This document shows positions 11,352 to 23,972 of a stretch of 28,042 nt of DNA, one piece after another. The translations under genes and the position numbers were made by a program. The stretch comes from a virus, in the IMG/VR virus record IMGVR_UViG_3300034024_000012, positions 1 through 28,042 of that record, one strand, 5' to 3'. The notes beneath the pieces were generated by a model. The model had not been told where the DNA came from and ran no database searches. It saw only the letters and a program-made list of their open reading frames with translations. Each line of letters opens with the position of its first letter. Within the stretch, counting starts at the first letter, position 1.

Positions 11352-11533
11352 GCGGTCTGCCCGAACTCACGGCCACTCAGCTCTACACCGCTGAGGCCAA
11401 CGAGGTGCACCGAATCCTCGACAACCACCACGCACCGCGCCACACGGCAGACGGTGCGGTGCTGTCCATGTCGCAGCGGGTGCAGGAGCTGGTCGAGTCA
11501 TTGCGCCGGCATATCAGCGCCCAAGCCCGCTGA
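11348..11533 (+). CDS. Small helical protein, unknown function
   Basis: Predicted 61 aa. The sequence (TATQLYTAEANEVHRIL, then SQRVQELVESLRRHIS) suggests two helices, with a His-rich link (NHHAPRH). No family recognised. Overlaps its neighbours by 4 bases upstream and 1 base downstream, so it is part of the coupled chain leading to the replication genes. Confidence 0.6.
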   Translation: MSGLPELTATQLYTAEANEVHRILDNHHAPRHTADGAVLSMSQRVQELVESLRRHISAQAR

Positions 11534-11742
11534 TGGGCCTCACTGCTGCCGTTTTGGCGGGCGCGAGCGCCACCGCCTACACCAGTGCGCGACAAGCCGC
11601 CTTATCCCAGGCGGTGCAGCGGGGGCTAGACGCCACGCTGACGGATACCTACGTCCCGCGGCCCGCGGCCATGTGCAACGGCTGCGGCGCCCCTGTCCAC
11701 GCCGCCATCTGTTCGTACTGCACGCGCCCCGCACGTCTCTAA
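11533..11742 (+). CDS. Zinc-ribbon small protein
   Basis: Predicted 69 aa. The C-terminal third has CxxC-x8-CxxC (Cys 48, 51, 60 and 63; CNGCGAP then CSYCTRP), the pattern of a short zinc ribbon. The N-terminal 30 residues are an Ala-rich helix. It lies 19 bases upstream of the primase, and the primase shows no zinc-binding motif of its own. T7 gp4 primases carry a Cys4 zinc-binding domain at the N-terminus, so this protein could supply it as a separate chain; that is inference. It could also be an unrelated DNA- or protein-binding ribbon. Confidence 0.65.
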   Translation: MGLTAAVLAGASATAYTSARQAALSQAVQRGLDATLTDTYVPRPAAMCNGCGAPVHAAICSYCTRPARL

Positions 11743-11750
11743 CCCTACCC

Positions 11751-11764
11751 AAGGAGGATTTATC
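11751..11764 (+). promoter_or_regulatory. Strong ribosome-binding site before a non-standard start codon
   Basis: AAGGAGG (11751-11757) is the best Shine-Dalgarno sequence in the window. It is followed by ATTT and then ATC at 11762-11764, in frame with the primase. No ATG, GTG or TTG occurs in this frame between the upstream stop and the ATG at 11936, although the intervening codons look coding. Confidence 0.6.
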
Positions 11765-12589
11765 ACCCAAACCGTATTCCACCAGAGTCCGCCCCCGTGG
11801 TTCACCGAGCGCGTCAGTGCGCTGCGGCCCGGGGGCCGGGTTCGCCTCACGGACGGCCAGCTCGTCAGCTACAACGGCAAGGGCTGGCACCTGTACGACT
11901 TCCGTGAGAAGTCCTCCGAGGTCTACGAGCCCGCCATGTCGCTGGCCGAGCGCCTCGCCGTCATCGCCGCCGCCCGCACCGCCGACCTGGAGGCATCCGC
12001 CTCGGCCGAGCTGCCCCTCACTGGAGCCATGTTCCACCCCAAGGACTGGCCGCTGGACGCCCGCGTCTGGTTCTACAAGGCCGGCATCGGCAATCCCGAC
12101 ATCAACACCCTGGGCGCCTTCTGGAGCCCCGCCATGCGCCGCGTGGTCCTGCCGTACCGCACCGTCACCGGAGAGCGGGCCTGGATCGCCCGGGACCCGT
12201 CGTGGACCAAGGGCAAGCCCATGCCCAAGTACCTGTTCCCCGCTGGCGTCGCCCGCGGCGGCGGGGCGCTGTTCAGTAACGGCTACGAGAAGCCCGTGGG
12301 CATCGTCGTGGTCGAGGACGCGCTCAGCGCCTACCGCATTCAGCGCGACACGGACTACGACGCCGTGGCTGCCCAGGGCACCACCCTGGACCGTGACGCC
12401 ATCGTCGCCATCGCGGAGATGGACGTGCCAGTCGTGGTGTGGCTGGACCCGGATAGCTGGGGCCAGATTGGCGCCGGCAAGCTGCTGCGGGCCTTCGCCA
12501 ACCTCGACGTGCCCGTGCGCAACATCGAGTCCCTGCGGGACCCCAAGAACCACGAGCCGCACGAGATACAGGAGGCCCTGGAGGTATGA
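11762..12589 (+). CDS. DNA primase (TOPRIM type), apparent ATC start
   Basis: Predicted 275 aa if translated from ATC 11762; the first standard start is ATG 11936 (217 aa). I prefer 11762 because of the AAGGAGG placed 4 bases upstream and because 11762-11935 reads as good protein (RVRLTDGQLVSYNGKGWHLY). The TOPRIM core is visible: GIVVVEDALSAYR with catalytic Glu near residue 185, and VVVWLDPDSWG with the Asp-x-Asp pair near 229-231. It synthesises RNA primers for lagging-strand synthesis. Primase and helicase are separate genes here, as in phiKMV-like phages, whereas T7 fuses them. The end overlaps the helicase ATG by 4 bases. Function is confident; the start is unusual. Confidence 0.8.
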   Translation: MTQTVFHQSPPPWFTERVSALRPGGRVRLTDGQLVSYNGKGWHLYDFREKSSEVYEPAMSLAERLAVIAAARTADLEASASAELPLTGAMFHPKDWPLDARVWFYKAGIGNPDINTLGAFWSPAMRRVVLPYRTVTGERAWIARDPSWTKGKPMPKYLFPAGVARGGGALFSNGYEKPVGIVVVEDALSAYRIQRDTDYDAVAAQGTTLDRDAIVAIAEMDVPVVVWLDPDSWGQIGAGKLLRAFANLDVPVRNIESLRDPKNHEPHEIQEALEV

Positions 12590-13866
12590 GCACCTTCGCC
12601 CTCGACCTGTCCGTCCTGCGCCTGCTGACGGAGCGAAAAAAATACCTCAGATTCTCGAACGTGATTCCAGAGGGCACGATCAACAAAGAGTCCGCTGCCC
12701 TGGTCAAGCGTTTCGGGGAGTTCTTCAAACACACCGACGCCGAGCGCATCACCTTCGCGGAGTTCTGGCCCTTCCTTCGCACCCGCTACCCCAAGTGGTC
12801 CGAGAAAGACATCGCCTTCTGGCGGGCCCTTGTCGCACCCATCGACACCCCCAACCCGCTCGGGCTGGAGGAGCAGATCGTCACCAACCTGTTGGCCTCG
12901 GCCCTGGGCAACAAGGCCCTGGACTTCATCGAGCAGTGGAAGGCGGGCGGCGAGATAGAGCTGGGCGAGGCCCTGCGCACCGCGGTGGACCAGTACGAGG
13001 AGCAACTCAACCGCAAGGTCCGCACGCCCCTCGTGCAGCTTGGCTGGGACGAGATGCTGGAGGAGGAGACGAACGACGTGGGCCTGCACTGGCGCATCCG
13101 TGCGCTCCAGGAGTCCACCCGGTCCCTCCGCGGCGGGGATTTCGGCCTCATCGCGCTGCGCCCCGACAAGGGCAAGACCACCATCGCGGCCGGCGAGATT
13201 ACGTACTTCGCCCCGCAGCTCGCGGCCCTGCACGAGGAGTTCCGCCCCATCCTGTGGCTCAACAACGAGGGGCCGGGGCGCCGCATCATGGGCCGCATCC
13301 GGCAGGCCGCCCTCGGCGCCAGCATCAGCGACATCGTGGAGATGGGCGCCGCCGAGGCCCAGCGCCGCTACGTCGAGGCCATCGGCGGGCGCGAGGACAT
13401 CATCCGAGTGCTCGACATCCACGGCTTCAACTCGTATGAGGTGGAGGAAATCTTCCGCAAGCACAAGCCCGCGGTGGTGGTGTTCGACATGATCGACAAC
13501 ATCCAGTTCTCGGGCGGCGCCACCAACGGCGGCGAGCGCAACGACCAGATTCTGGAGGCCATGTACCAGTGGGCGCGGGTCCAGTGCGTCATCCATGACT
13601 TCGTCGGGCTGGCCACCAGCCAGATCAGCGCCGAAGGGGAGGGCGAGAAGTACCCCAAGCAGACGCAGCTCAAGGACAGCCGCACCGGCAAGCAAGGCGC
13701 CTGCGACTTCATTATCACGGGCGGCGTGGACAACGCGCTGCCCAACCAACGCTTCATCGGGTTCACCAAGAACAAGATCAAGCGACAGGGCGCGAAGTAT
13801 TCACCCAACGCGGTGTACTACTTCGACGCAGACCGGGCCCGGCTCGTCGAGCCAACCGAGGAATAA
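12586..13866 (+). CDS. DnaB-like replicative helicase
   Basis: Predicted 426 aa RecA-fold helicase that would unwind DNA 5'-3' at the fork as a hexamer. The Walker A variant RPDKGKTT has its Lys near residue 197, and Walker B is VVVFDMID with Asp near 301. Later motifs include LATSQISAEGEGEKYP and a C-terminal KNKIKRQG with Lys/Arg that could reach a neighbouring subunit's nucleotide. Residues 1-150 are an N-terminal helical domain. It is coupled to the upstream primase gene, which is presumably its partner. A DnaB/T7 gp4-type helicase call is firm. Confidence 0.9.
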   Translation: MSTFALDLSVLRLLTERKKYLRFSNVIPEGTINKESAALVKRFGEFFKHTDAERITFAEFWPFLRTRYPKWSEKDIAFWRALVAPIDTPNPLGLEEQIVTNLLASALGNKALDFIEQWKAGGEIELGEALRTAVDQYEEQLNRKVRTPLVQLGWDEMLEEETNDVGLHWRIRALQESTRSLRGGDFGLIALRPDKGKTTIAAGEITYFAPQLAALHEEFRPILWLNNEGPGRRIMGRIRQAALGASISDIVEMGAAEAQRRYVEAIGGREDIIRVLDIHGFNSYEVEEIFRKHKPAVVVFDMIDNIQFSGGATNGGERNDQILEAMYQWARVQCVIHDFVGLATSQISAEGEGEKYPKQTQLKDSRTGKQGACDFIITGGVDNALPNQRFIGFTKNKIKRQGAKYSPNAVYYFDADRARLVEPTEE

Positions 13867-19336: not shown

Positions 19337-19635
19337 TGGCCTACCTAAACAAACTGCGGGCGGTCATCCCCGGCGCCACGCCAAGCCGCCCTCCCAACGA
19401 GGACGAGCTGCGGGGCTCCGGCCGCTCGACGGCGTTGGCCTTGATGCACCTCGCCGCCGCAATCCGGGCGCCTGGAGTCGCCATCCACATCCGCGACCAC
19501 CACGAGGGCCGCAACTCAGAGGCATACCTGATGGGCCTGATGCAGAGATACGCCGAGTTGATGGAGTTACAGCATCTCCAGTTCGACCCGAGGCGACATA
19601 CCGTGACGTTCACCGGCCTGGAGTGGGTCGGCTGA
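19336..19635 (+). CDS. Small protein, unknown function
   Basis: Predicted 99 aa. A strong AAAAAAGGAG lies just upstream of the ATG, which overlaps the nuclease stop. The sequence (STALALMHLAAAIR, then GVAIHIRDHHEGRNSEAYLM and RRHTVTFTGLEWV) suggests a mixed alpha/beta fold with several His residues. No family recognised. Position among DNA-processing genes suggests a related role only by association. Confidence 0.65.
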   Translation: MAYLNKLRAVIPGATPSRPPNEDELRGSGRSTALALMHLAAAIRAPGVAIHIRDHHEGRNSEAYLMGLMQRYAELMELQHLQFDPRRHTVTFTGLEWVG

Positions 19636-20471
19636 TGGGCGCCCGCAAGTACCCCTCGCCAGCGCGTAGCGCCAGCCAGCCCGTCAACGGGCAAGCCAAG
19701 GTCCTGATCCTGGACATCGAGACGGCGCCCATCCTGGGCAACGTCTGGTCCATCTGGCAGCAGAACGTCGGCCTCAACCAGATCGAGCGCGACTGGTACA
19801 TCCTGTCCTTCGGCGCCAAGTGGCTGGGGCAGGACAAGGTCATCTACTACGACCAGTCCCGCGCCGCTGAAATCGAGGACGACACCGTCCTGCTGGGCAA
19901 GCTGTGGAAGCTGCTGGACGAGGCGGACATCATGGTCGCCCACAACGGCAAGCAGTTCGACGCCAAGAAGATCAACGCCCGGTTCATCCTGGCCGGCATG
20001 TCCCCGCCGTCACCGTACAAGGTGGTGGACACGCTGCTGATCGCCAAGGCGCAGTTCAAGTTCACCAGCAACAAGCTGGAGTACCTCGCTGACAAGCTCA
20101 ACACCAAGTACAAGAAGCTCTCGCACGCCAAGTACCCGGGGTTCTCCCTGTGGAAGGGCGTCATGGCCGGCGACAAGGCCGCCTGGGCCGAGATGCGGAC
20201 GTACAACGAGCACGACGTACTGAGCCTGGAGGAGCTGTACCTCATCCTGCGCCCGTGGGACCGCAAGCACCCCAACGTCGATGTCTACGACGACACGCAC
20301 GAGGGCACCGCCTGCCCCGTGTGCGGCAGCCACCACCTCCAGAAGCGCGGGTGGCACACCACCAACGTGGGCAAGTACCAACGCTACGCCTGCAACGGCT
20401 GTGGCGCCTGGAGCCACGCACGCACCCCCGTCAACACCAAAGGCAAGCGCCGAGGATTACTCGCAACATGA
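19635..20471 (+). CDS. RNase H-fold 3'-5' exonuclease with C-terminal zinc ribbon
   Basis: Predicted 278 aa. The DEDD-type motifs are in order: VLILDIETAP (Asp 27, Glu 29), IMVAHNGKQFDAKK (Asp 109) and TYNEHDVLSLEELY (His 193, Asp 194), the pattern of DnaQ/YprB-type exonucleases. Residues about 225-260 add a Cys4 zinc ribbon (CPVCGSH, then CNGCGAW), probably for nucleic-acid binding. This is a second 3'-5' exonuclease beside the proofreading domain of the polymerase. Phage homologues are often labelled putative exonuclease; the substrate is not established. Coupled on both sides by short overlaps. Confidence 0.8.
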   Translation: MGARKYPSPARSASQPVNGQAKVLILDIETAPILGNVWSIWQQNVGLNQIERDWYILSFGAKWLGQDKVIYYDQSRAAEIEDDTVLLGKLWKLLDEADIMVAHNGKQFDAKKINARFILAGMSPPSPYKVVDTLLIAKAQFKFTSNKLEYLADKLNTKYKKLSHAKYPGFSLWKGVMAGDKAAWAEMRTYNEHDVLSLEELYLILRPWDRKHPNVDVYDDTHEGTACPVCGSHHLQKRGWHTTNVGKYQRYACNGCGAWSHARTPVNTKGKRRGLLAT

Positions 20472-21593: not shown

Positions 21594-23972
21594 TTGGACC
21601 TCAGCCAAGCGGACCGCGAACGGCGGCTGCTGGCCGAGGGGCGGGAGAAGCTCCTGGCCCAAGTCATGCACGCCGAGAAAAGCGGCAACACTGCGGTGCT
21701 GCCTTATTCCAACTTCCTGGTCCGTCAGGTCATCACGGACCTGTCGGCCCGCATCGAGGCCGACGCAGCCCTCCGGGGCGGCGCTGGGGCCTACAAAAAG
21801 TTCGCCCTGTACCTGGGCAGCATGGACCCCAACATCGTGGCCCTGCGGGCCCTCCAGGGCGTCCTGTCCATCCTGCTGTCCAACGACGCGGCGGACAGCC
21901 CGCAGCCCATCGGCAAGAAGGTGGCCCACGCGCTGGGGCGTTCGGTGTACGTCGAGTACCTGATGACGCACTTCGCCAAGCTGTCGCCGCCGCTGTTCAA
22001 CAGCCTGCTGCGCGAGCACCACCGCACCATGACCAGCGACGAGCGCCGCATCATCAAGGTGTTCCAGGCCCGGTTCCAGCAGGAGGGGTACACGCACCCC
22101 ACATGGCCGCACGGCGACATCGAGATGGTGGGCAACTACCTGATGCAGCAACTGCGCGACGTAGGCTTCATCGAGCTGTGGACCAAGATCGGCCGCAGCC
22201 GCGGGCGCCCGCACACCTTTCAGTACGTGGCCCTGGCCACCGACGTACGCAGCTCCGGCATCGCCCTCATGGAAACGCTGGCCGAGATGCCGCGCCAGAG
22301 CGGCCCGCTGATCGAAGCGCCCAAGCCCTGGGACGCGCTGACCAATACGGGCGGCGGCTTCCACACCCCCGAGATGCAACGCATGATGGCCTACGCCGTC
22401 CAGGGTGCCGGCATCCGGGAGATGCCGCACAGCGTCATCGAGGGCATCAACTACCTGCAATCCATCGCGTGGCAAGTCAACAAGCCCGTGCTGGACGCGG
22501 TGCGTGCCGTCAGCCTGACGCACGACATCGGCAAGGACATCACCGGCGCCGACCCCGGCCCCATGCCTGAGTACACAGGCGACACCGACGAGGAGAAGAA
22601 GGCATGGAAACGACGAGCCAAGGAGTGGTACACGGAGCGGAAGGTCCGGGCTGTGAGGCACCGCCGAGTGCAGAAAGCTTTCAGGGAGGGCGCCGAGCTT
22701 TCCTCGTATTCTTCAATTTGGTTTGCGTACTACGCGGACTTCCGGGGGCGCATATATGCACGGGCTGGTGGCGTCTCCCCGCAGGGGACCGACCTGGAGA
22801 AGGGCCTGATTCGCTTCGCCTCTGGCAAGCCGCTGGGCACACCGGACGCCGTGTGGTGGTTCAAGGCGCACGGGGCCAGCAAGTTCGGGCTGGACAAGAT
22901 CAGCTTCGAGGACCGGGTACGGTGGGTCGATGAGCAGCACGACGCTCTGCTACGTATGGCTGCTGACCCCATTGGGGAAAGAGCCTGGGCTGAAGCTGAT
23001 AGCCCCGTGCAGTTTCTTGCGTGGGTCCTCGAATACTCGCTATGGGCAAACAACCCTGCGACGTTTGAGAGCCATCTACCCGTCAGCCTGGACGGTACAT
23101 GCAATGGGCTCCAGAACTTCTCGGCGCTACTCCGTGACGATGTGGGGGGACGAGCTGTCAACCTTATTGACGGCGCCCGCCCCAATGACATCTACGCCGA
23201 CGTAGCCAAGCGGGCCACCGAGCTGCTGGAGGCCATGCCGCCCAGCCCGTTCCGGGATGCGTGGCTGGCCCACGGCCTGAACCGCAAGGTCACCAAGCGC
23301 ACCACGATGACGCTGCCCTACGGCTGCACCCGCTTCGCCTGTAGCGAGTTCATCGTCAGCGACTACCTCGAAGTGGAGAAGCCCCCGCAGATCGCGCTGG
23401 CGGACTACGGCGAGGCCGGCAACTTCCTGTCGCATGTCGTGTGGGCCGCCATCGGTGACGTGGTCATCAAGGCCCGCGAGGCGATGGAGTGGCTCAAGGG
23501 CTGGGCAGCGCACGCCGCCAAGAACGGCCGGCGCGTGGAGTGGACCACTCCCAGCGGCCTGCTGGTGCGCAGCGAGTACCCCAAGCAGAGGCGCCTGGAG
23601 GTCAAGAGCATCGCGTTCAAGAGCCGTATCACCCTGTACCGGGACGAGGACGGCAGCCTCGACGCCCGCCGCGTGGCCAACGCCGTGGCCCCCAACTTCG
23701 TGCATAGCCTGGACGCCAGCCACCTGATCCGGGTGGTCAACACGGCCCAGCGCCGGGGCATGACAGTGGCCGCCGTGCACGACGACTTCGGCGCCCACGC
23801 GGCCGACACCGCGGAGTTCTCCAAGATCATCCGCGAGGAGTTCATCCGCATGTACGCGGAGCACGCGCCCCTCCAGGCCCTGGCCGACGCCACCGGCTAC
23901 CCCATACCGCCGCCCGCCGCGGGCCTGCTGGACCTCAACAGCGTCCGCGACTCCCGGTACTTTTTCGCATAG
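21594..23972 (+). CDS. T7-type single-subunit DNA-directed RNA polymerase
   Basis: Predicted 792 aa against 883 in T7. The start is TTG at 21594, immediately after the previous stop; the next in-frame ATG (21666) would cut about 24 residues. Catalytic residues match T7: SLDGTCNGLQNFSALLRDD (Asp near 500, T7 Asp537), VTKRTTMTLPYG (Lys near 568 and Tyr near 576, T7 Lys631 and Tyr639) and VHDDFGAHAAD (Asp near 730, T7 Asp812). The protein ends RYFFA, close to the T7 FAFA tail. It transcribes the late genes from phage promoters. Two stretches, near 22640-22760 and 22925-23175, use clearly different codons. Confidence 0.95.
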   Translation: MDLSQADRERRLLAEGREKLLAQVMHAEKSGNTAVLPYSNFLVRQVITDLSARIEADAALRGGAGAYKKFALYLGSMDPNIVALRALQGVLSILLSNDAADSPQPIGKKVAHALGRSVYVEYLMTHFAKLSPPLFNSLLREHHRTMTSDERRIIKVFQARFQQEGYTHPTWPHGDIEMVGNYLMQQLRDVGFIELWTKIGRSRGRPHTFQYVALATDVRSSGIALMETLAEMPRQSGPLIEAPKPWDALTNTGGGFHTPEMQRMMAYAVQGAGIREMPHSVIEGINYLQSIAWQVNKPVLDAVRAVSLTHDIGKDITGADPGPMPEYTGDTDEEKKAWKRRAKEWYTERKVRAVRHRRVQKAFREGAELSSYSSIWFAYYADFRGRIYARAGGVSPQGTDLEKGLIRFASGKPLGTPDAVWWFKAHGASKFGLDKISFEDRVRWVDEQHDALLRMAADPIGERAWAEADSPVQFLAWVLEYSLWANNPATFESHLPVSLDGTCNGLQNFSALLRDDVGGRAVNLIDGARPNDIYADVAKRATELLEAMPPSPFRDAWLAHGLNRKVTKRTTMTLPYGCTRFACSEFIVSDYLEVEKPPQIALADYGEAGNFLSHVVWAAIGDVVIKAREAMEWLKGWAAHAAKNGRRVEWTTPSGLLVRSEYPKQRRLEVKSIAFKSRITLYRDEDGSLDARRVANAVAPNFVHSLDASHLIRVVNTAQRRGMTVAAVHDDFGAHAADTAEFSKIIREEFIRMYAEHAPLQALADATGYPIPPPAAGLLDLNSVRDSRYFFA

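Follow-up and report, generated by a model that had tools for sequence, protein, structure and literature searches.

In a T7-like phage fragment recovered from a metagenome, the codon ATC stands where the primase gene ought to have its start codon. This raises two questions, best kept apart: does translation of the primase start at that very place, and, if it does, is the codon found there AUC in the phage itself?

The sequence and its primase

The window, by which we mean the whole stretch of DNA analysed, is the entire IMG/VR virus record IMGVR_UViG_3300034024_000012, 28,042 bases long. It is an autographivirus (T7-like) fragment, with genes for a primase, a DnaB-like helicase, a family A DNA polymerase, a single-subunit RNA polymerase (Pfam PF00940, 2e-94) and a head-tail connector on its + strand; the part from the primase to the right end is in synteny with Variovorax phage VPv81 (PV558796). 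The phage is known from this one metagenomic fragment: two DNA patterns run against viral contigs returned no further copy, and no relative was found among the genome contigs that were scanned. The RNA polymerase gene (21594–23972) begins with a TTG that overlaps the stop of the preceding frame (TAATTG) and has no Shine–Dalgarno sequence. A truncation of this gene, which might have been a sign of error in the sequence, was considered and rejected: the gene is whole, TTG 21594 standing where VPv81 has ATG.

The primase (11762–12589, + strand, 275 codons plus stop; phrog_47 DNA primase, 1.6e-14) has the RNA polymerase domain, the TOPRIM fold and the conserved acidic residues of the T7/DnaG type. 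Residues E185, D229, D231 and D260, which are catalytic, are invariant, and the catalytic domain superposes on that of T7 primase (1nui_A, Z 14.3, rmsd 3.2, 177 residues of 76–274) and on 5guj (Z 16.2, rmsd 3.0, 191 residues). A DnaB/gp4-type helicase (12586–13866, + strand; phrog_19, 2.8e-58) lies downstream as a separate gene, with an ATG start.

A ribosome-binding site in front of ATC

The open frame of the primase runs from 11642 to 12589. The first-pass annotation had claimed that no ATG, GTG or TTG occurs in this frame before 11936, that the best Shine–Dalgarno sequence, AAGGAGG, is placed just upstream of an in-frame ATC ACC CAA, and that the 58 codons between this ATC and the first ATG read as good protein; closer analysis upholds all of it. 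The first canonical ATG of the frame (11936–11938, + strand) is internal, being codon 59 when ATC is counted among the 58 that come before, and the only weaker candidates ahead of it are ATA at 11645 and CTG at 11693, 11822 and 11891. The Shine–Dalgarno sequence (11751–11757, + strand) matches the anti-Shine–Dalgarno at seven positions out of seven, which is the longest match among 22 gene starts compared. A spacer of four bases, ATTT, separates it from ATC (11762–11764, + strand), within the range of 3–6 that prevails at the window's other gene starts with a match of at least 4. The 60 bases around ATC fold at −5.2 kcal/mol, the second-weakest value of the 22 starts. As for the 58 codons, their codon-usage score is +0.22 per codon in frame versus −0.73 and −0.83 in the two other frames, and the N-terminus of every relative can be aligned with them; upstream of ATC the primase frame scores −0.77 per codon, as non-coding DNA does.

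The rank of this Shine–Dalgarno sequence is in part the outcome of selection, the site having been picked at the outset for its strength. AAGGAGG is found three times in the window, where 2.8 occurrences are expected by chance (both strands), and the two other copies, at 948 and 14819, lie inside genes. By our own arithmetic, the probability of meeting it 3–10 bases ahead of this one start, the homologous one, is about 4e-4.

Where translation of the primase starts

The two nearest relatives of the window primase are those of VPv81 (54% identity) and of the IMG/VR contig L012 (44%). The former starts as GAGG-N4-ATG-ACA, reading ATG ACA GTT TTT CAC, and the latter as AGGAGG-N8-GTG-ACC, reading GTG ACC ATA TAT CAC, while the window has AAGGAGG-N4-ATC-ACC, reading ATC ACC CAA ACC GTA TTC CAC. 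Threonine is next to the start codon in all three, and the window carries two additional residues after it. Residues 2–58 are identical to VPv81 at 33/55 positions (60%) and to L012 at 30/55 (55%), against 51% and 42%, respectively, in the remainder of the protein. The segment is under purifying selection (dN 0.44, dS 1.42 and dN/dS near 0.3 versus VPv81), and AlphaFold2 models the N-terminal domain that it encodes (11762–11935, + strand) with pLDDT 86–95. A set of 61 distinct, untruncated IMG/VR relatives comprises 54 that start with ATG and seven with GTG, in every case before the N-terminal segment, and none has AUC, AUU or AUA there; nine annotated phage primases agree, all with ATG starts.

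Because the starts of the nearest relatives, the conservation and codon usage of residues 2–58 and the 61 relatives all designate the same place, translation almost certainly starts at 11762. Homologues that begin at 11936 and lack the upstream segment, named in the first-pass annotation as the case that would tell against ATC, were looked for among these 61, and every one of them carries the segment. An aligner pairs the two other starts with CAA at 11768, owing to the two extra residues; CAA is not any start codon and ATC lies at the Shine–Dalgarno distance of VPv81, hence our preference for ATC. Starts at CTG 11693 or ATA 11645 were discarded, codon usage being non-coding and homology absent there, and so was initiation in a different frame close to the Shine–Dalgarno sequence, within reach of which there is no ATG, GTG or TTG.

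Two further readings would do away with initiation at ATC. The primase might start at ATG 11936, the first canonical start in frame, and go without its N-terminal domain. There is a precedent in T7, which makes a 56-kDa form of gp4 that begins at codon 64 and is devoid of the zinc-binding domain (PMC9198812). Yet a proper Shine–Dalgarno sequence is absent at 11936 (the nearest sequence of that kind, GAGGT, is 13 bases upstream), residues 2–58 are more conserved than what follows, none of the 61 relatives starts there, and L012 has leucine at the position of this ATG. We find such a start very improbable; the internal ATG could at most be the source of a second product. The other reading calls upon the 69-codon open reading frame located immediately upstream (11533–11742, + strand), the stop of which comes 19 bases before ATC: a +1 shift near that stop would bring it into the primase and create a fusion. 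The primase frame, open from 11642, is indeed +1 to this frame, at the end of which a zinc ribbon may be encoded (CNGC-x8-CSYC; Pfam DZR, E 0.0023, below the cut-off), and the primase has no zinc ligands of its own. By contrast, the best Shine–Dalgarno sequence comes behind the stop, at the distance of a start codon, between the stop and ATC the primase frame shows the codon usage of non-coding DNA, a recognisable shift signal is absent, and in VPv81 and L012 the primase begins with an ATG or GTG of its own, with no zinc ribbon beside it. Fusion is scarcely credible on this evidence. No homologue of the 69-codon frame appears in phage records. Its zinc ribbon acting in trans was also discarded as a general solution, and since neither relative has one beside the primase, we rate as low the idea that it stands in for that of the primase, as we do its fusion by frameshift. 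All readings other than a genuine AUC and an error or minority variant at 11762 share, in sum, a very slight probability.

Is the codon AUC in the phage?

The codon at 11762 in this sequence is ATC. Most likely the phage really uses AUC as the start codon of its primase, with chances that we place slightly above even. A serious contender, with chances not very far below even, is that the start at 11762 is canonical and that the C of ATC comes from an assembly or base-calling error, or from a minority variant that entered the consensus. ATC is one base away from ATG, so that a single G-to-C miscall suffices; ATG and GTG are found at the same place in the nearest relatives, all 61 relatives are canonical, and the phage is a metagenomic fragment for which no second copy was found. 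Nor is a strong Shine–Dalgarno sequence peculiar to a rare codon: it also fits a canonical start, as L012 has AGGAGG with GTG. On the other side, the conserved genes with a homologue in VPv81 are unbroken, with neither frameshift nor premature stop, their other starts being ATG, GTG or TTG, and at none of the sites otherwise invariant across 77 sequences does the helicase carry a change of its own – checks on gene integrity and invariant sites which would, it must be said, overlook one substitution.

What is known of initiation speaks on both sides. Against a genuine AUC stand its weak initiation and the finding that in a reconstituted system IF3 opposes start-codon pairs that are weak at the third base (PMC10158994). 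In its favour, PMC12350097, citing Hecht 2017, counts AUC as one of the seven codons with the strongest initiation in E. coli, each more than 100-fold over control, and weak starts tend to be paired with strong Shine–Dalgarno sequences, compensation having been reported for GUG and UUG (PMC5622118). The strong Shine–Dalgarno sequence, the usual spacer and the weak folding at ATC are what would be expected if a weak codon were compensated.

How an AUC start might work, and at what level

If real, the AUC start would belong to a kind already known, that of the near-cognate AUU of infC. In E. coli, infC, the gene for IF3, and pcnB have AUU start codons. Both have been confirmed by experiment, and that of infC is conserved and subject to autoregulation by IF3. 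The likeness is that AUH replaces AUG at a conserved gene, through a change in the third position, with initiation by fMet-tRNA; the difference is that the AUC of the window is seen in the sequence of one contig and is common to no relative.

The anatomy of the site can be read off directly, and from it we infer the steps that would follow. The anti-Shine–Dalgarno of 16S rRNA would pair with AAGGAGG and bring AUC into the P site at the usual spacing, where initiator fMet-tRNA would read it with a third-base mismatch that IF3 disfavours. The mRNA around AUC, little structured, may be open to the ribosome, and ribosomes that have finished the upstream open reading frame 19 bases earlier might re-engage at AUC. 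Weak as the codon is, it would probably still yield enough of an enzyme that may be needed in small amounts. That a rare start lowers the primase relative to the helicase, as proposed when the site was first noticed, is possible; a simple reduction is argued against because the strongest Shine–Dalgarno sequence, together with nearly the weakest mRNA structure, would offset the weak codon. A more ambitious view has the AUC start both real and selected. Synthesis of the primase would then be subject, like that of infC, to the check that host IF3 makes on start codons, its level tuned by the perfect Shine–Dalgarno sequence, in a lineage whose primase would, moreover, work without a zinc-bound template-reading domain. 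We regard this combination as a long shot.

With reference to annotation, gene finders limited to ATG, GTG and TTG would miss the N-terminal domain and place the primase start 58 codons too far downstream. If the AUC is real, the phage would also have put an essential replication gene on a near-cognate start, which is uncommon in nature.

A primase that has lost its zinc ligands

The arrangement of the locus recalls T7 gene 4 (gp4A/gp4B), in which the primase catalytic domain likewise comes after a small N-terminal domain, with an in-frame internal ATG just behind it. It differs in that primase and helicase are separate genes in the window, that zinc ligands are missing from the N-terminal domain and that T7 starts at AUG. 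The likeness is closer to the split primase/helicase pair of autographiviruses (phiKT, JG068, VPv81), with the same order of primase and helicase, similar length and homology throughout, the start codon apart: ATC in the window, and not ATG or GTG.

The loss of zinc ligands is common to the window, VPv81 and L012 only (11762–11935; L002:1498–1670; L012:392–560). None of the four Cys/His ligands that characterise the N-terminal zinc-binding domain of T7/DnaG-type primases is left in these three: a conserved DFRE replaces the CxxC of the second knuckle and the first knuckle is deleted. In the IMG/VR relatives the second CxxC is kept in 60 of 61, the exception being the contig of L012 itself. Even without zinc ligands the domain is better conserved than any other part of the primase, and its model is a small beta fold (pLDDT 91). 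Searched alone, this very small domain gave no significant match in Foldseek, and VIA-align returned unrelated proteins with Z at most 4.6. In metazoan Twinkle these cysteines disappeared along with primase activity (PMC3610141); the primase of the window, which has lost them too, retains its catalytic residues. The zinc-less primases of this lineage may matter more than the start codon, as they would show how a primase of the T7 type picks its priming sites in the absence of a zinc-bound domain. In the replication region of the same three phages there is, besides, a conserved protein with a Cys4 zinc ribbon (CPVCG...CNGCGAW) at its end, found at 19635–20471 in the window, at L013:19405–20244 and on the minus strand of L015.
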